Below are positions 55,651 through 64,000 of a DNA stretch of 64,000 nt, one piece after another; the first letter of the stretch is position 1; every line of letters starts with the position of its first letter. The stretch spans positions 62,001 to 126,000 of the forward strand of contig NZ_QFBC01000018.1 in assembly GCF_003122325.1 (NCBI RefSeq), in the 5' to 3' direction. The notes beneath the pieces were generated by a model. It was not told the DNA's origin, ran no database searches, and worked only from the letters and a program-made list of their open reading frames with translations. The DNA comes from Rhizobium album. GTDB lineage: Bacteria; Pseudomonadota; Alphaproteobacteria; Rhizobiales; Rhizobiaceae. Position numbers and translations under genes: made by a program.

Positions 55651-56829
55651 ATGAACGTTACACCTGCCATAACGCAACCGGAACTGAGTTTTGCGGATAT
55701 CATTCTCGATCAGGGAAGCGAGATTTCCAGCAAGCTCGACATGCTGCGCATCGAAAAGTTTCCGCCGAATGCTCAGAAGACGCTGCGGCAGTTTTCGCTG
55801 TCGGAAGTCGCGGATTTTGTCGGCGTGTCGCAAAGCTATCTGAAGAAGCTGCATCTGCAGGGCAAGAGCGTCGAGCCCCTCACCTCCCCGACCGGGCGTC
55901 GTTATTACACCGCCCAGCAGATGAACGAGCTGCGGCAATATCTCGACCGCGTGCCGCATCGCCGCAACGGCGAGAAGCTGCAGGTGATTGCCGTCGTCAA
56001 TTTCAAGGGCGGTTCCGGCAAGACGACCACGGCAGCCCACCTTGCCCAGCATCTGGCGCTGAAGGGGTTTCGCGTCCTGGCGATCGACCTCGACCCGCAG
56101 GCATCGCTGACGGCGCTCTACGGTATCCAGCCGGAGCTTGACGGCAACCCTTCGCTCTATGAATCGCTGCGTTACGACGACAAGCGGCGTCCGATTTCGG
56201 ATGTGATCCGCTCGACCAACTTCCCTGATCTCGACATCGTTCCGGCCAATCTCGAATTGCAGGAATACGAATACGATACGCCGATCGCGATGCAGAGCAA
56301 GGAATCGACGGCGGGCAAAACCTTCTACACGCGCATCGGCGATGCACTGGACGAAGTCGATGCGGATTACGATGTCGTTGTCGTCGATTGCCCGCCGCAG
56401 CTCGGCTACCTCACCCTCACCGCTTTGACTGCTGCGACCTCGGTGCTGATCACCGTCCATCCGCAGATGCTCGACATCATGTCGATGAGCCAGTTTCTGC
56501 TGATGCTGGGCGATATCCTCAAGAGCGTCGAGGGCGTCGGCGTCAAGGTGTCGCTCGACTGGTTCCGCTACCTGATCACCCGCTATGAGCCGATGGATAT
56601 TCCGCAGCAGCAGATGGTCGGCTTTATGCAGTCGATGTTTGCCAAGCAGATGCTGAAGAACCAGATGGTGAAGTCGACGGCCATTTCGGATGCAGGCTTG
56701 ACGAAACAGACATTGTACGAGGTTGAGCGCTCGCAATTCACGCCGTCCACCTATGATCGCGCCCGGGAATCGCTCGATGCGGTGAATTCGGAGATTATCG
56801 AACTGATGATCAAGGCATGGGGGCGGTGA
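55651..56829 (+). CDS. repA: Plasmid/chromid partition ATPase RepA (ParA)
   Basis: ParA-type Walker ATPase of 392 aa. N-terminal helix-turn-helix (about 45-90: FSLSEVADFVGVSQSYLKKL). The deviant Walker A is NFKGGSGKTTTAAHLAQHLA (about 120). Then come LAIDLDPQASLTALYG, VVVVDCPPQLGYLTLTALTA and late YEPMDIPQQQMVGFMQSMF. It acts in partition with RepB and represses the operon. First gene of repABC, behind its own promoter and operator. Length and order match repABC loci of Rhizobiaceae. Confidence 0.97.
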   Translation: MNVTPAITQPELSFADIILDQGSEISSKLDMLRIEKFPPNAQKTLRQFSLSEVADFVGVSQSYLKKLHLQGKSVEPLTSPTGRRYYTAQQMNELRQYLDRVPHRRNGEKLQVIAVVNFKGGSGKTTTAAHLAQHLALKGFRVLAIDLDPQASLTALYGIQPELDGNPSLYESLRYDDKRRPISDVIRSTNFPDLDIVPANLELQEYEYDTPIAMQSKESTAGKTFYTRIGDALDEVDADYDVVVVDCPPQLGYLTLTALTAATSVLITVHPQMLDIMSMSQFLLMLGDILKSVEGVGVKVSLDWFRYLITRYEPMDIPQQQMVGFMQSMFAKQMLKNQMVKSTAISDAGLTKQTLYEVERSQFTPSTYDRARESLDAVNSEIIELMIKAWGR

Positions 56830-56907
56830 TGATGACGTTGTCAGCCGTACATTCGGCCTTTTTTCGATGCCAATTCAATTGCTTGCTGCAAATTAGGGGG
56901 GAATGAG

Positions 56908-57909
56908 ATGGCCCGCAAGGATGTTCTTCTCGGCATTACCCAGGCAGACAGCAACCGCACCGGCCGTCAGGCGACGCCGGGTTATGCCTCGCGTGGCGCC
57001 TCCCGATCGATGATCAATTCGCTGGGTGAGCTTGCGGAGAAGGCGGCGCGGGCCGACCAGCTGCTGGAAGGCGAGGTCGTGCAGGAACTGGATGCCGCAC
57101 TGATCGAGGCCTCCTTCGTCTCCGACCGCATGGATGAGGACGATGAGGCGTTTCAGGAACTGGTGGCGGCAATCGAAAGTCGTGGCCAGGACAGCCCCGT
57201 CCTGTTGCGGCCGCACCCGACAGGCGGCGGGCGTTACCAGGTCGTTTTCGGTCATCGGCGCGTGCGTGCGGCGCGCCAGCTCGGCCGGCCCGTTCGGGCG
57301 GTGGTCAAGGAGATCGACGACCGCGACCACGTCATCGCCCAGGGCCAGGAAAATTCGGCGCGTGAAAACCTGTCCTTCATCGAACGTGCCAGCTTTGCGC
57401 AAAAACTCCTCGACCTCGGTTACGATCGCCCGACCATCCAGTCGGCGCTGGCCGTCGATGCGCCGATGCTGACCCGCATGCTGTCCGTCTCGGGCCGGGT
57501 TCCCGCCGCCTTGCTGCAGGCCATTGGTGCCGCCAAAAGTGTCGGCCGTGATCGCTGGCTTGAGCTGACCCAGCTGGTCGAGAAACCGTCAAACCTCGAC
57601 AAGGCGCTTGGTTTCGTCACGACGGCGGAATTTCTCGCGGCAAAGGCTGAGGATCGTTTCGAGCTGTTGCTCAACCATATCAAGCGGGGGCAACGCGGCA
57701 GCAAGCGTAGCGCCCCTGCGGCAAACACCTGGGCACCGGCGGACAAATCCGTCAGCGCCGAGTTCAAGAACACCGGCAAGGCGTTCTCTTTGTCTTTGAA
57801 GGCGAAGGATGCCGGCCGATTCGGCCAGTTTCTCTCCAGCAATCTGGACAGGCTTTATCAGCAGTTCAGGCAGGAAGAGGAGAGCGGCAGCATGAAACAA
57901 GGAGACTGA
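56908..57909 (+). CDS. repB: Partition protein RepB (ParB)
   Basis: ParB-type DNA-binding protein of 333 aa. The ParB N-terminal nuclease-like domain spans about 60-150 (DEDDEAFQELVAAIESRGQD, VVFGHRRVRAARQLGRPVRA). The CTP-site ENSARENLSFIERASFAQKL follows, with a helix-turn-helix at about 160-185. ATG at 56908 behind AGGGGGGAA. It should bind parS palindromes; I did not find a convincing parS (GTTNNNNGCNNNNAAC type) in the window. It follows repA by 78 bases and is followed by the antisense RNA region. Confidence 0.96.
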   Translation: MARKDVLLGITQADSNRTGRQATPGYASRGASRSMINSLGELAEKAARADQLLEGEVVQELDAALIEASFVSDRMDEDDEAFQELVAAIESRGQDSPVLLRPHPTGGGRYQVVFGHRRVRAARQLGRPVRAVVKEIDDRDHVIAQGQENSARENLSFIERASFAQKLLDLGYDRPTIQSALAVDAPMLTRMLSVSGRVPAALLQAIGAAKSVGRDRWLELTQLVEKPSNLDKALGFVTTAEFLAAKAEDRFELLLNHIKRGQRGSKRSAPAANTWAPADKSVSAEFKNTGKAFSLSLKAKDAGRFGQFLSSNLDRLYQQFRQEEESGSMKQGD

Positions 57910-57914
57910 ACCGC

Positions 57915-57971
57915 AAAAGAAAAAGGTCCCCGAACCGACGAAGCGGATCCGAGAACCTCTCTCGATGTAGC
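57915..57971 (-). ncRNA. Antisense RNA controlling repC (ctRNA, incA type)
   Basis: On the minus strand, TTGACT (complement of 58001-58006), a 17-base spacer and GATTCT (complement of 57978-57983) form a promoter. It predicts a start near 57971. The transcript then folds at 57925-57957 into a stem of about 12 pairs (with wobbles; GGTTCTCGGATCC opposite GGTTCGGGGACC) and ends in TTTTTCTTTT (57915-57924). The length of about 55 nt, the position between repB and repC and the opposite strand match the ctRNA of repABC loci, which blocks repC expression. Confidence 0.82.
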
Positions 57972-58063
57972 AATCTGAGAATCCCATTTCCGCGAATCGT
58001 AGTCAAGTGTTTTCAGCGTCTTTTCGGCGAACGAATTTCTTTTGCCTTCTTTGAAGGTGAAGA

Positions 58064-59281
58064 ATGATGAATGGGCAATATGTAACGACGCCTTTCGGGC
58101 GGCGAGCGATCTCGTTTGGCATGCTGGCGCATCAGCTGCAGGCACGTGACATCGATCCCGAGCAGCGCGTGGAAAAATGGAAACTGTTTCGGGCTCTCTG
58201 CGAGGCCCGGCAGCATTTCGGCGTGTCTGACAGGGCACTCGCCGTCCTGAACGCGCTCTTGAGTTTTTATCCGAAGACCGAGATCTCCGAAGAAAACGGC
58301 CTGGTGGTGTTTCCATCCAATGCGCAGCTTTCGGTGCGGGCTCACGGCATCGCGCCGGCGACGCTTCGCCGTCATCTTGCTGCTCTGGTCGATGCCGGCC
58401 TGCTGATCCGCAAGGATAGTCCCAACGGCAAGCGATATGCCAGGAAGGGCGATGCCGGGCAGGTCGAGCAGGCTTTTGGCTTCAGCCTTGCACCATTGCT
58501 GACGCGGGCCGACGAGATCGAGGCGGTCGCCGCACAGGTCGTCGCCGACAGGCAGGCGCTTCGCAGCATGCGCGAGCAGGTTTCCTTGTGCCGTAGAGAT
58601 ATCGCCAAGCTCATCGAAGCCGCGATGGAAGAAGCGATGCCAGGGGATTGGGACGGTCTTTATCTGCGCTTCCGGGAGATCGTCGGCCGATTGCCGAAGG
58701 TTCCGGATCTTCGAGATCTCGCGCCGATCCTGAAGGACTTTAGAAATCTGCGGGCTGACATCGTCAACCGGATGGAATCTTTGGTAAAATCAAAAAAACA
58801 GAGCGCCAATGAGTCTCAAATTGAGCAGCACATACAGAATTCAAACCCAAACCATCCTACTGAACTTGAACTCGCTTTGAAAACAAAGCAGGAAGCGATC
58901 CGGAGGGTTTATCCGACTGAGGACGGAAGCAGCTTGAAAACATTTCCATTGGCGATGGTGCTGCAGGCCTGCCCGGAGATCGGCGCTTATGGCCCCGGCG
59001 GAGCGGTTGGCAACTGGCGGGATCTGATGGCGGCGGCCGTCACCGTGCGGTCGATGCTGGGCGTCAGTCCGGGCGCGTACCAGCAAGCCTGCGAGACGAT
59101 GGGGCCGGAAAATGCGGCGACGGTGATTGCGTGTATTCTGGAGAGGGCCGGGCAGATCAATTCGGCGGGCGGCTATTTGAGGGATTTAACGCGCCGGGCG
59201 GAGCAGGGGGAGTTTTCGCTCGGGCCGATGCTGATGGCGCTGATCAGGACGAATACAGGCAGAACGCAGAAAGCGGGTTGA
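58064..59281 (+). CDS. repC: Replication initiator RepC
   Basis: Replication initiator of 405 aa, limiting factor for replication of repABC replicons. Start MMNGQYVTTPFGRRAISFGM with FGRR near residue 12. Conserved KLFRALCEARQHFGVSDRAL, then VLNALLSFYPKTEISEENGL with VVFPSNAQLSVRAHGIAPAT. The C-terminal half has GPGGAVGNWRDLMAAAVTVR and SAGGYLRDLTRRAEQGEFSL. The two ATGs at 58064 and 58067 both fit AAGGTGAAG. An AT-rich segment in mid-gene is the likely origin. The last 30 residues are less conserved in character. Confidence 0.97.
   Translation: MMNGQYVTTPFGRRAISFGMLAHQLQARDIDPEQRVEKWKLFRALCEARQHFGVSDRALAVLNALLSFYPKTEISEENGLVVFPSNAQLSVRAHGIAPATLRRHLAALVDAGLLIRKDSPNGKRYARKGDAGQVEQAFGFSLAPLLTRADEIEAVAAQVVADRQALRSMREQVSLCRRDIAKLIEAAMEEAMPGDWDGLYLRFREIVGRLPKVPDLRDLAPILKDFRNLRADIVNRMESLVKSKKQSANESQIEQHIQNSNPNHPTELELALKTKQEAIRRVYPTEDGSSLKTFPLAMVLQACPEIGAYGPGGAVGNWRDLMAAAVTVRSMLGVSPGAYQQACETMGPENAATVIACILERAGQINSAGGYLRDLTRRAEQGEFSLGPMLMALIRTNTGRTQKAG
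58770..58895 (+). other. AT-rich segment inside repC, probable origin of replication
   Basis: A stretch much richer in A+T than its surroundings, with GGTAAAATCAAAAAAACAG, CAAATTGAGCAGCACATAC and GCTTTGAAAACAAAGC. In repABC replicons the origin lies within the repC coding sequence in such an AT-rich part. Here it encodes the low-complexity linker near residues 236-277 (KSKKQSANESQIEQHIQNSN). The assignment rests on position and composition only. Confidence 0.55.
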
Positions 59282-60420: not shown

Positions 60421-60568
60421 CGTTTGTTATTTTTATGACAAAACGTCACCCTTTTTGAGGGAAGAGCTCTCGATTTCTACTTTTTGAATAGGTATTGTCG
60501 GGAGTGAACGGATCGGCTGCTATACATTGGTGGTTTGAACCGGATTCCTGCAAATTGGAGTGGCGGCG

Positions 60569-62521
60569 TTGACCGTGGCCAAAAATGCAAAGCCGCGAAT
60601 CTGCCTTCTCGGGCGGCCGAAACTGCTCGAAAACGGGCAGGAAATCCCTTTGCCGGAAAAATCCTATCTGTTGTTGGGGCTTCTTGCCGTGTCCCAGGGG
60701 CTGGAGACCGACAGGGAAACCGTCCGGAGCCTGTTATGGCGCTCCGAAACGCCGGAGCGGCGGGCGGGCAGCCTGCGGCAACTTTTGTCGCGCATCGACC
60801 AAAGCGTGCCGACAGATGTGCCGCCTTTGCTGAAGACGACGCGGACCAGCCTGGCGTTGAATGACGATGCCTGGGATGTTGACCTGCTTTTGCTGCTTCG
60901 GGCCGATGATCTGCCGAAATCGCAGTGGGTGCTTTTCGAAGGCGACCTTCTGGAACTGTCGCAGACACCCACGCATGGCGCCGAGGAATGGCTGACATTC
61001 GAGCGGCAGCAACTCGCTGATTGCCGGGTGCGGTTGTTGTCGCGCATGCTGGAAGAGGATGGCGAGTGGGAGGACGACGACCTGCTGTTTCTCGCCGAAC
61101 GGCTGCTGGATATCGATCCGGCGCACGAAATCGCCCACCGGACGCTGATGTCCGTCTACGCCCGCAAGGGCGACATGTCCGGCGCCCGGAAAGCCTACCT
61201 GCGCTGCAAGGCGCGTCTACGCGAGGATTTCGATACGGAACCGGAAGAGAAGACGGTCGGCCTGGCCCTTGAACTCGGCATCGTGCAGCCCGCCAGTGCG
61301 GCCGGCGTGGCATCGCCGCTTTCGCTCCCGGTATCGGCCTCCAGTTCCGCCGGCGAGCCGCGCATCGTCATTCTTCCGCCGGAATCGATCCTCTCCGATC
61401 CGCTGATGATGCGGGTTGGTCGCGCCTTGCTCGAGGAGGTGACCATCGGCCTCAGCCAGCAGCGCGGTTTCAAGATCATCGCCGCCCATACGAGCTTCGA
61501 GTTGGTGAGCCGGGCGATCGAGCCGGTGCAGTTTGCCGCGACGTCGGACGATCTGAAATTCGATTATTCGATCTATGTCACGGTGCGGGGAGCGGGTGAG
61601 GACGTGCTTGCCACCTGTCGTCTGACACGGCTTTCCGATGCCAGTGTGCTCTGGGCAATCGACCTGCCGCTGACGCTGCAGAGGATCAACGATTCCTTCT
61701 CGCATCTTGCCCGGCGCATCGTCACATCGTTGACCGATACGATCGAAAGTTCGGAACTTTCGAAACCCGTGGCCGATACCACGCCGACCGCCTATCGACT
61801 GTATCTCGAAGGCAAGCGGTTGTTGTCCGGAACCGATCTGCAATTGCTGCGCAAGGCCCGCAAACTTTTCCAGGCTTCATTGCAGCGCTGCGACAGCTTT
61901 GCGCCGGCGCATGCCGGCATATCGCGCAGCCTGTCGCTTGAATGGCTGGTGCGGTTCATGCGGGCCAGGGAATTGCTGGACAAGGCCAAGGAAGCGGCGG
62001 TGCTGGCGCGGCGGACCGATCCCAACAACGGCCGTGTCTTTCGCGAGCTGGGTTTTATCGCGCTTTACCAGCGGCGGTTCGAAGAAAGCCTCGATTTCTT
62101 CCAGCAGGCGAGGGAACTCAGCCCCAACGATGCCGACATTCTGGCGGATTATGCCGATGCCCTGTCCCACGATGGCCAGCTCGACGCAGCCCTTTCCCTG
62201 AGCATCGCCGCCTTCCGCCTGAACCCGCTACCCTCAGATCATTATTACTGGCAGCTGGGCGGCATCTATTTCGTCCAGGAAAACTACGAAAAGGCGCTGG
62301 AGGTCATGGAACCGGTGCGGTCGCGACCGGCAACGGCCCGTCTGCTCGCCGCAATCTATGCGATGATCGGCGATCTGCCGCAGGCCAGGCATCATGCTTC
62401 GGTCGTGCTCGAGAACTTCCCGGATTTCCGCACCGAGCACCTCTGGCATTTCGTTCCCGACCGGCAACCGGATCACACCAGGCTGCTCATTCGCGGGCTC
62501 AATATTGCAGGCCTGCAATAA
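60569..62521 (+). CDS. SARP/BTAD-type transcriptional regulator with TPR region
   Basis: Regulator of about 650 aa. The N-terminal winged helix (ICLLGRPKLLENGQEIPLPE, SYLLLGLLAVSQGLETDRET, SLRQLLSRID) and the bacterial transcriptional activation domain (AEEWLTFERQQLADCRVRLL through MSGARKAYLRCKARLREDFD, about 130-230) are of the SARP/BTAD class. The middle part (RIVILPPESILSDPLMMRVG) resembles the TolB-N-like modules of adenylate-cyclase-type regulators. The C-terminal half has TPR-like helices (FRELGFIALYQRRFEESLDF, SPNDADILADYADALSHDGQ). Start TTG at 60569 is 8 bases after GGAG; a GTG at 60560 overlaps that site. It lies 106 bases upstream of the small ORF and ycaO gene and may control them. 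Confidence 0.85.
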   Translation: MTVAKNAKPRICLLGRPKLLENGQEIPLPEKSYLLLGLLAVSQGLETDRETVRSLLWRSETPERRAGSLRQLLSRIDQSVPTDVPPLLKTTRTSLALNDDAWDVDLLLLLRADDLPKSQWVLFEGDLLELSQTPTHGAEEWLTFERQQLADCRVRLLSRMLEEDGEWEDDDLLFLAERLLDIDPAHEIAHRTLMSVYARKGDMSGARKAYLRCKARLREDFDTEPEEKTVGLALELGIVQPASAAGVASPLSLPVSASSSAGEPRIVILPPESILSDPLMMRVGRALLEEVTIGLSQQRGFKIIAAHTSFELVSRAIEPVQFAATSDDLKFDYSIYVTVRGAGEDVLATCRLTRLSDASVLWAIDLPLTLQRINDSFSHLARRIVTSLTDTIESSELSKPVADTTPTAYRLYLEGKRLLSGTDLQLLRKARKLFQASLQRCDSFAPAHAGISRSLSLEWLVRFMRARELLDKAKEAAVLARRTDPNNGRVFRELGFIALYQRRFEESLDFFQQARELSPNDADILADYADALSHDGQLDAALSLSIAAFRLNPLPSDHYYWQLGGIYFVQENYEKALEVMEPVRSRPATARLLAAIYAMIGDLPQARHHASVVLENFPDFRTEHLWHFVPDRQPDHTRLLIRGLNIAGLQ

Positions 62522-62627
62522 CATAGTCTTTTCAATATATTAGATCGCGTGTCACGGTCGAATGACGCTTGTCGTGGTGAATTTCTCCCGCCCGCAGCGA
62601 TGCTGCATTCCAACGTGGAGACACCTC

Positions 62628-62759
62628 ATGAAGACCAATGAGACGACTGCGAATTCCGTTCGGCTTTCCGCTGCCGCGCAGGCGGCCCTGAAGCAGGAGA
62701 GCTTGAGCGTCGAAACCAACGCCACGTCGAACATCGTTCACGCCGTTCGTTTCCGGTAA
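62628..62759 (+). CDS. Candidate RiPP precursor peptide (43 aa)
   Basis: ATG at 62628 with GTGGAGACACCTC ahead (GGAG, 8 bases), stop TAA at 62757-62759, ycaO start 6 bases later. Sequence blocks: MKTNETTANSVRLSAAAQAA, LKQESLSVETNATSNIV, HAVRFR. The N-terminal part is polar and helical (leader-like). The C-terminal part (SLSVETNATSNIVHAVRFR) holds Ser and Thr but no Cys, and ends in a basic VRFR. Gene size, spacing and the YcaO neighbour make a modified-peptide precursor the best reading. I do not recognise it as any described precursor. The cleavage site cannot be set from the sequence. Confidence 0.62.
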   Translation: MKTNETTANSVRLSAAAQAALKQESLSVETNATSNIVHAVRFR

Positions 62760-62765
62760 ACTGCC

Positions 62766-64000
62766 ATGATGCAAATGTCTGCCTCGTCGTCACTGGATCT
62801 GCTTGTGGACGATCTCGGACGCTCATCGACGGGTTTCAACGCCTATCATGATCGTTCGGTGACGCCGGGGCGGACGTTTGCGTCCATCAAGCCGTTTTTT
62901 CCCGCATTGGGCATCACCAGGGTCGGCCTGCTGACCGGGCTGGATGTGCTCGATATTCCCGTTGCCTTTGCCACGCGCCCGAACAGCCACACATTGTCGG
63001 TGTTCCAGGGCAAGGGGATAGACAATGACGCGGCGTTGGCCTCCGCGGCCATGGAGGCCGTCGAAACGCGCATAGCGGAAATCGTCCCCGACGATCTGCA
63101 CCTGAAAACCGTGGACGCTATGCGTTCCTCCGGCCGGTCGATGATCGACCTGGCGTCGGTGGCGCGCTGCGTTCCCGACGAGATCACCAGGGCGCCGCTG
63201 CCCTGGTGCCGCGGCTATGACCTCATGTCCGGCCAGGGCGTGGATGTGCCGTGGTGGCTCGTCGGCCTCGATCATCGCGGCACGCGTCCCGCCGGTTTCG
63301 AGCAATCGAGCGATGGCCTTGCATCCGGCAACCGGCCGGCTGAGGCGGTTCTGCACGGCCTCTGCGAACTGGTGGAGCGTGACGCCTGGGCATTGACGCA
63401 GCTGCGGCCCTGGGAGTGGCTGCAGCATGCGCGCATCGATCCCGCCAGCCTGAACGATCCCGTCGTCGATATTCTGCGCGCCCGCATTGCCAGGGCGGGC
63501 ATGGAGCTGTTGCTGCTCGACATGACCACGGATATCGGTGTTCCGGCGTTCCTGGCGGTGATCATCCCCGGCGCCATGGCGGCCCGGTTCGATGCCCGGT
63601 GGACACAGGTTTGCGGCGGCTGCGGCTGCCATCCCGATCCGGTGCGCGCCGCCTTGCGTGCCATCACCGAAGCGGCCCAGAGCCGTTTGACGGCGATCGC
63701 CGGCAGCCGCGACGATTTTTCGCCACGGCTTTATCAGCGCCTCGACGGCGACCAGTCGATGGCTCAGCTTGTGTCGCTCAAGGATTGCTCTTCACGGCCG
63801 TTTCCGCCTGCGGCTGTCGAGCGCCGGCCGGAAACGGTACAGGCGACGATCCGCCGGATCGTCGATCGGCTTGAGGAAAAGGGGATAGGGCAGGTCGTCG
63901 CCGTACCGCTGTCTTCCCCGGATTTTCCCGTTTCGGTGGTTCGGGTGATCGTGCCCGGGCTGGAAGTCGAGATCGTCGGTGACAATATTCAGCTTGGTTT
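62766..64000 (+). CDS. YcaO-domain protein, TfuA-associated type (3' end cut by window)
   Basis: The open frame encodes 411 residues up to the window end with no stop. YcaO enzymes use ATP to phosphorylate a peptide backbone amide, giving azoline or thioamide bonds. The three ATP/Mg signatures are present: ASAAMEAVETRIAE (Ser93, Glu97, Glu100), CELVERDAWA (Glu201, Glu204, Arg205) and ITEAAQSRLTAIAGSRDD (Glu302, Gln305, Arg307). CGGCGCHPDP (283-292) just before the third motif is typical of the YcaO branch that works with TfuA. There is no N-terminal E1-like or RRE domain, as fits that branch. Start ATG at 62766 (second ATG at 62769). TfuA and further genes should follow outside the window. 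Confidence 0.92.
   Translation, partial: MMQMSASSSLDLLVDDLGRSSTGFNAYHDRSVTPGRTFASIKPFFPALGITRVGLLTGLDVLDIPVAFATRPNSHTLSVFQGKGIDNDAALASAAMEAVETRIAEIVPDDLHLKTVDAMRSSGRSMIDLASVARCVPDEITRAPLPWCRGYDLMSGQGVDVPWWLVGLDHRGTRPAGFEQSSDGLASGNRPAEAVLHGLCELVERDAWALTQLRPWEWLQHARIDPASLNDPVVDILRARIARAGMELLLLDMTTDIGVPAFLAVIIPGAMAARFDARWTQVCGGCGCHPDPVRAALRAITEAAQSRLTAIAGSRDDFSPRLYQRLDGDQSMAQLVSLKDCSSRPFPPAAVERRPETVQATIRRIVDRLEEKGIGQVVAVPLSSPDFPVSVVRVIVPGLEVEIVGDNIQLG

Follow-up and report, generated by a model that had tools for sequence, protein, structure and literature searches.

A predicted thioamide-type RiPP module with a control circuit of its own on a repABC replicon of Rhizobium album

Our analysis points to a self-regulated module for a thioamide-type RiPP on a repABC replicon of Rhizobium album. 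The cassette begins near the end of the stretch of DNA that was analyzed, which spans 64,000 nucleotides and is referred to here as the window, and it continues in locus L002, a stretch that spans the window's end and supplies the genes beyond it. We assign this reading a probability of about 0.78, a value that includes the predicted operator, the proposed antirepression, and an effector role for the product. Six genes make up the cassette, in the order BTAD-TPR regulator, peptide, ycaO, tfuA, small helical protein, and XRE regulator (Table 1). The peptide gene, ycaO, and tfuA form a tight group on one strand, preceded by the BTAD-TPR gene and followed by the small-protein gene and a convergent XRE gene. 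What is new is the control module, which consists of a BTAD-TPR gene on the same strand, an 11-bp-phased repeat after tfuA, and a small protein paired with an XRE regulator. Rhizobia thus equipped probably produce a modified peptide whose expression is governed by a dedicated genetic switch.

Table 1. Positions of the cassette features and of a nearby transporter gene (window positions unless a locus is named)
Feature	Position	Strand	Remarks
SARP-like regulator, BTAD domain and C-terminal TPR repeats	60560..62521	+	653 aa from the listed GTG; true start not established
Direct repeat TCACGG-N5-TGACGC, predicted BTAD-TPR operator before the peptide gene	62552..62568	+	Position conserved in class A
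Precursor peptide gene, predicted YcaO-TfuA substrate	62628..62759	+	43 aa, MKTNETTANSVRLSAAAQAALKQESLSVETNATSNIVHAVRFR
ycaO, 423 aa	62766..64000 in the window (411 aa), ends 37 nt beyond	+	ATG start; Pfam YcaO 234 bits, cut-off 25.7
tfuA, 249 aa	L002 8035-8784, outside the window	Same as ycaO	Pfam TfuA 133 bits, cut-off 30
Second direct repeat	L002, 2027 nt after the ycaO start, outside the window		
Small helical protein, 100 aa	L002 8886-9188, outside the window		Gene after tfuA
XRE regulator	L002 9199-9600, outside the window	-	HTH_3 45 bits, cut-off 23
MFS transporter gene	L002 12995-14275; L110 3391-4623; L111 2794-3975		

The genome of 6.86 Mb contains a single Pfam YcaO match. We place the cassette on a repABC replicon because RepB and RepC genes lie just upstream; together with an AAA_31 (RepA-like) gene, they occupy approximately positions 56140-59281 of the window (L002 up to 3282). 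On several of the 60 listed plasmids, the orthologue is found 20 to 30 kb from one end of the record. The same arrangement occurs on plasmid pRL11 of R. johnstonii 3841, where RL_RS32815 (BTAD), RL_RS40325 (47-aa hypothetical), RL_RS32810 (YcaO), RL_RS32805 (TfuA), RL_RS32800 (hypothetical), and RL_RS32795 (HTH) follow one another in that order, and gene order in Rhizobium sp. Pop5 is identical. The boundary of the cassette was drawn by comparing L002 ORFs of at least 80 aa with eleven other loci. The BTAD-TPR gene, ycaO, tfuA, the 100-aa ORF, and the XRE gene were common to the loci compared that share the window's type of peptide (class A: L058, L090, and L110-L115), and a TetR gene was additionally common to L002 and both loci of the same genus (L110 and L111). 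Among the passages that a search for locus-tag prefixes brought up in the main texts of published papers, none gave fitness or expression data for the pRL11 cassette. When five cassette proteins were submitted to PADLOC, four returned nothing and the XRE regulator returned 19 matches, none of which was exclusive by name (HTH, RmrA, capH, control proteins); with generic XRE matches as the sole outcome, an anti-phage role was dropped.

That the 43-residue peptide is the substrate of YcaO-TfuA is strongly supported by its conservation and by its one-to-one co-occurrence with ycaO. This substrate had been proposed in a first-pass annotation made from the letters of the window, and the gene features that it described hold up on inspection, with GGAG placed 7 nt before the ATG and 6 nt separating the TAA stop codon from the start of ycaO. 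A 65-aa in-frame version beginning at 62562 was set aside, as relatives do not back it and favor the 43-aa start. Relatives of ycaO at 59 to 75% identity were drawn from the genomes searched and from 32 contigs (31 from Rhizobium and one from a Hyphomicrobiales MAG), and flanks were read at 30 of 77 other listed places and at 10 weaker or order-level places. With second copies of other loci (L089, L111, L112, L114, and L115) counted once, this small gene precedes ycaO in 36 of 36 distinct orthologous loci; the peptides of L079 and L114 were missed by the conservation script and seen when the loci were read directly. Another 119 plasmid records carry a YcaO that is 60 to 80% identical, and the small gene is present in both of the annotated ones that were read. 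A profile of the peptide, the kind of search that the first-pass annotation had suggested, matched 7 of 297 family genomes, once in each and every time at such a ycaO, with no more than 23 candidates scored for any genome (G382, which may or may not be among the 297, has a class A peptide).

The small gene evolves as a protein, given a mean pN/pS of 0.33 for the 35 distinct sequences (simple Nei-Gojobori proportions). Constraint is unevenly distributed, with a ratio of 0.46 in alignment columns 1-22 and 0.26 in columns 23-52. The C-terminal end is nearly invariant across the same 35 sequences and follows the pattern N-[AG]-x4-5-[TV]-H-A-[LVM]-[RK]-[FY]-[RQ], in which N, H, and A do not vary. 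It is the core that varies in many RiPPs; here the C terminus is the conserved part. Since conservation is highest in this C-terminal part, which is likely the core, we think it probable that the product acts as a constant effector or signal and not as a fast-diversifying bacteriocin.

Our best inference, drawn from sequence comparison, is that YcaO-TfuA thioamidates the 43-mer. The start of tfuA overlaps the end of ycaO by 4 nt, and for both proteins the closest curated equivalog models are those of the McrA-glycine thioamidation pair, each scoring below its cut-off: YcaO reached 189.5 bits against TIGR03266 (cut-off 365) and TfuA reached 162.9 bits against NF033432 (cut-off 235.2). The nearest solved YcaO is MJ1094 (E 3e-29), with which the conserved E-rich ATP-site segments align, in keeping with the ATP-binding signatures noticed earlier, and the nearest TfuA structure chain is 6xp8. 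Assignment of the enzyme to the TfuA type, likewise made in the first-pass annotation, is upheld by the adjacent tfuA and by McrA-type models outscoring azole and S12/uL16 models. The case for thioamidation rests on these McrA-type models and structures, on the tendency of YcaO enzymes that form thioamides to rely on TfuA and a thiocarboxylated ThiS-type carrier outside habitats with high sulfide (PMC13063428), and on the one ThiS match in the genome. Two findings contrary to the peptide-substrate proposal had been envisaged when it was made, namely, orthologous ycaO genes without a conserved small ORF and a neighborhood of the ribosomal S12 type; we found the ORF throughout, as described above, and a score of 12.7 bits against the S12/uL16-type model NF040716, which has a cut-off of 700.

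Related loci allowed the control genes to be followed over a wider range. Membership in the module was defined by a precursor match of class A or class B, to which L091 was added by eye, giving 12 class A loci, 25 class B loci, and one sister locus (L091). Class B is found in many genera of the family, with a YcaO that is about 40% identical and a different precursor in the same place; that precursor is about 70 to 100 aa long, starts like MAKVVVIGIAGEPGLWLADL, and in some loci has repeated units at its C terminus. The YcaO tree splits the two precursor classes. All 38 module loci, against 0 of 10 other YcaO-TfuA loci, have a BTAD-TPR gene upstream in the same orientation. A BTAD-TPR-like gene is present on the opposite strand within 7 kb in five of the 10 (L107, L109, L119, L121, and L122), and for that reason the link between this regulator and YcaO-TfuA, as judged from gene neighborhoods, may extend beyond the module and be older than it. 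The best BTAD-TPR match of the whole genome adjoins ycaO in 19 of 20 genomes searched, a count that includes non-module genome G053, where the match is on the other strand, 4.1 kb from ycaO; in the remaining genome (G011), it is the second-best match that adjoins ycaO. Tree distances of YcaO, taken raw and therefore including shared species history, correlated with those of BTAD at r = 0.93 (43 loci), with those of TfuA at 0.89 (47 loci), and with those of XRE at 0.65 (31 loci).

The regulator itself scored 41.8 bits against Pfam BTAD (cut-off 22.1) and 45.4 bits against TPR_12 (cut-off 30.1); its structure model was poor (pLDDT 58.5). With a BTAD domain, a TPR C terminus, and period-11 direct repeats before target genes, the system resembles SARP regulators with TPR, yet it belongs to alphaproteobacteria, shows no ATPase domain in the Pfam scan, and is tied to a YcaO-TfuA peptide cluster. 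SARP sites are described as direct repeats 11 bp apart (PMC4393881). Alignment of the regions upstream of the class A peptide gene revealed two TNACGC-like units at this distance, with L090 one base off the exact pattern. The repeat in the window is the single match in 64 kb, and since 0.43 matches would be expected by chance, it is not significant when taken alone. From the class A alignment we derived the pattern TVACGS-N5-TVACGS, and the interval scanned after tfuA was chosen once the repeats there had been seen. On these terms, the repeat follows closely behind tfuA in 29 of 38 module loci (11 of 12 in class A, 18 of 25 in class B, and 0 of 1 in the sister), with the exact repeat absent there from L090, L091, L092, L094, L100, L108, L124, L130, and L131. 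It occurs upstream of ycaO in 13 of 38, before the precursor in 12 and between peptide and ycaO in L090. Other spacings (periods 6 to 17) were seen in 0 to 2 of the 38 loci, the repeat turned up elsewhere 7 times in 1.29 million strand-bases, and the same intervals of the 10 non-module loci contained none. For the 23 class B loci examined (L104 and L123, in which no start was found, were left out), a site before the precursor was found in 0, and the BTAD and precursor genes are 12 to 46 nt apart in 19. Given this short gap and the missing site, the target in class B would be the gene after tfuA.

The gene after tfuA encodes a protein of 88 to 100 aa in class A and one of 70 to 100 aa with a like pattern in class B. 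Similarity between the two forms is modest (hhalign E 9e-5, probability 59%), and their kinship is backed by the same position and, mostly, the same operator. HMMs found one form or the other in 29 of the 34 module loci scanned (L058, L067, L080, and L087 were left out) and in 0 of 10 non-module loci. Furthermore, the small protein and the XRE regulator come and go together, with both present in 29 of the 34 loci and neither present in five (L091, L102, L103, L104, and L125). Since these five form two lineages of the tree, the joint absence represents at least two events, not five. A tblastn search found no XRE in seven loci; two of them (L130 and L131) were scored as having XRE by annotation, which places an HTH gene ahead of the BTAD-TPR gene. 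The XRE family is multicopy: 4 genomes had 2 to 8 matches, and in one of them, G424, a copy other than the one linked to ycaO scored best. When upstream regions were aligned, no clear shared palindrome that could serve as an XRE operator was visible by eye. AlphaFold predicts that residues 11-50 of the small protein fold into a helical hairpin (block-mean pLDDT 90-98), and a fold search of the PDB gave 90 matches at E <= 10 and none at E <= 0.001. In place of the small protein, a glycosyltransferase-like ORF of 406 to 408 aa, named by eye, follows the operator in L102, L104, and L125, and a 485-aa ORF does so in L103. L092 and L094 have no tfuA directly behind ycaO, and the small-protein gene follows ycaO instead. 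In L092, a tfuA is encoded on the other strand, about 2.7 kb upstream; in L094, none was found within 12 kb.

These elements can be assembled into a mechanism. YcaO, working with TfuA, would swap a backbone oxygen of the peptide for sulfur, creating a thioamide, with a ThiS-type carrier from primary metabolism delivering the sulfur. The BTAD-TPR protein would bind the 11-bp direct repeats and activate the small-protein gene as well as, in class A, the peptide operon. The small helical protein would then counteract the XRE repressor and thereby complete a feedback loop similar to that of CinS and PraR. In R. leguminosarum, the CinS antirepressor relieves the PraR repressor (PMC4149787), and what our module has in common with that pair is an XRE regulator whose small partner gene is present or absent along with it. 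Here, the small-protein gene is found behind a BTAD-type operator, and the likeness drawn is one of arrangement. By this analogy, the small helical protein probably relieves the XRE repressor. As a guess motivated by the tight linkage and the constant peptide end, the TPR part of the regulator may sense the product.

The first-pass annotation had suggested looking for tfuA, a protease, and an exporter in the next 5 kb. The expected tfuA is there, while neither a protease nor an exporter gene is found in the shared cassette (class A loci compared, pRL11, and Pop5). An MFS transporter gene does occur nearby, at a distance of up to about 10 kb, in L002 and in the two loci of the same genus, upstream in L110 and L111 and about 4.2 kb downstream of tfuA in L002. 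These copies are 70 to 72% alike, and the gene is absent from the other loci compared. Together with the TetR gene, it could serve to export the product, or it could be a neighbor that has nothing to do with it.

An alternative to the effector role, to which we give slightly less than even odds, is that the locus encodes an ordinary thioamidated RiPP. The product would be secreted under a cluster-situated activator, the XRE regulator and the small protein would do no more than tune expression, and a general or nearby transporter would take care of export. This scenario shares its chemistry with the preferred explanation and differs in the role of the product, so that the two odds overlap. It fits with the nearby MFS gene, with the glycosyltransferase-like ORF behind the operator in three related modules, and with the repeated precursor units of related modules, as are known from thiovarsolins (PMC6511847). 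Known thioamidated clusters are also noted to be without transport genes, and clusters to come with assorted regulators (PMC8120280), which means that a missing exporter alone is no argument for an intracellular product. What speaks against secretion is a class A peptide end that hardly varies, unlike that of a diversifying toxin, together with the finding that no export or immunity gene is common to all loci compared. In a bolder reading, the TPR part of the SARP-like regulator would have the thioamidated peptide of its own module as ligand. Peptide, regulator, operator, antirepressor, and XRE repressor would then form a peptide-driven switch within or between cells, a possibility that we consider rather unlikely.

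The chemistry, too, could be different from what we propose. An enzyme pair that modifies another cell protein, as happens with uL16 in E. coli and McrA in archaea, and that uses the 43-mer as a mere assistant would agree with the McrA pair being the nearest models and with the existence of YcaO enzymes that act on proteins (PMC13063428). We think this improbable, given that the peptide and ycaO co-occur one to one, that a different small peptide occupies this position beside related ycaO genes, and that this type of ycaO is accessory, being present at 59% identity or more in 8 of 394 family genomes (the present one included) and sitting on plasmids, as in the 119 records mentioned above. Formation of azol(in)es on Ser or Thr of the peptide, with no thioamide, appears a shade more improbable still. 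In all 12 class A loci, tfuA stands beside ycaO, and the SagD model of azole-type enzymes (TIGR03604) gave 120.3 bits against a cut-off of 219.25. Furthermore, the shared cassette contains no cyclodehydratase partner gene, and the YcaO as translated does not end in PxPxP, the C-terminal motif looked for in azole-type YcaO. Azol(in)e formation would nonetheless be compatible with a peptide that has Ser and Thr and no Cys, and a bottromycin-type YcaO works without a C protein (PMC4603692).

Among known thioamidation systems, the predicted module resembles two in part. With the thiovarsolin genes varA, varY, and varT it shares adjacent precursor, ycaO, and tfuA genes and, in some related modules, repeated precursor units, but the shared cassette has no amidinotransferase, ATP-grasp, or heme-oxygenase-like gene and has BTAD-TPR, XRE, and small helical protein genes instead. 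With the McrA-glycine pair it shares the nearest YcaO and TfuA models and the nearest solved YcaO; unlike that pair, its proteins score below the equivalog cut-offs and the linked substrate candidate is a small peptide gene. We know of no likeness of the 43-mer to trifolitoxin. It is from trifolitoxin of R. leguminosarum bv. trifolii that the TfuA family takes its name (PMC4603692). The first-pass annotation had called the locus new-looking. This does not apply to the class, which is already known, since more than 500 YcaO-TfuA clusters were mined in Rhizobium in 2021 (PMC8120280); in the available sections of that paper, regulators and glycosyltransferases are mentioned in general terms, and all thioamidated RiPPs known by then are said to come from Actinobacteria. 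Novelty does appear to hold for the peptide, in that we found no description of it or of the module in the accessible portions of the YcaO/TfuA literature, and supplementary cluster figures of PMC8120280 (Rhizobium and Agrobacterium) may show the gene order. Now that substrate and promoter sites are named, and given that R. johnstonii 3841, a laboratory strain, carries the cassette on pRL11, a single strain suffices for testing both product and switch. Should the regulator indeed read the modified peptide, this would be a new type of peptide signaling in plant symbionts; with the peptide as ligand, it would amount to a Gram-negative signaling system built on a backbone-modified peptide.

Some of the loci that we read have features of their own. 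ORFs before ycaO with C-terminal repeats were seen in L096, L102, L108, and L109 (FSGKLEA, SDRAYSFDGR, NGLHEVAS-like, and TPTQVCGKISPKAV), and these repeated units are reminiscent of multi-core precursors. On one stretch of plasmid pC5.7c of R. rhizogenes (L130), there are two ycaO genes, and both are preceded by an ORF for a class-B-type precursor. In a more distant YcaO-TfuA branch (L107, L119, and L121), the TfuA open frames extend to 430 to 447 aa, compared with about 245 aa. Finally, a different YcaO-TfuA cluster, on plasmid pRlX4 of R. beringeri (L133, 3119-10546), includes a second YcaO, MoaD/ThiS and MoeB genes, and a leader peptide annotated as Nif11-like, and it is adjoined by recombinase and integrase genes.
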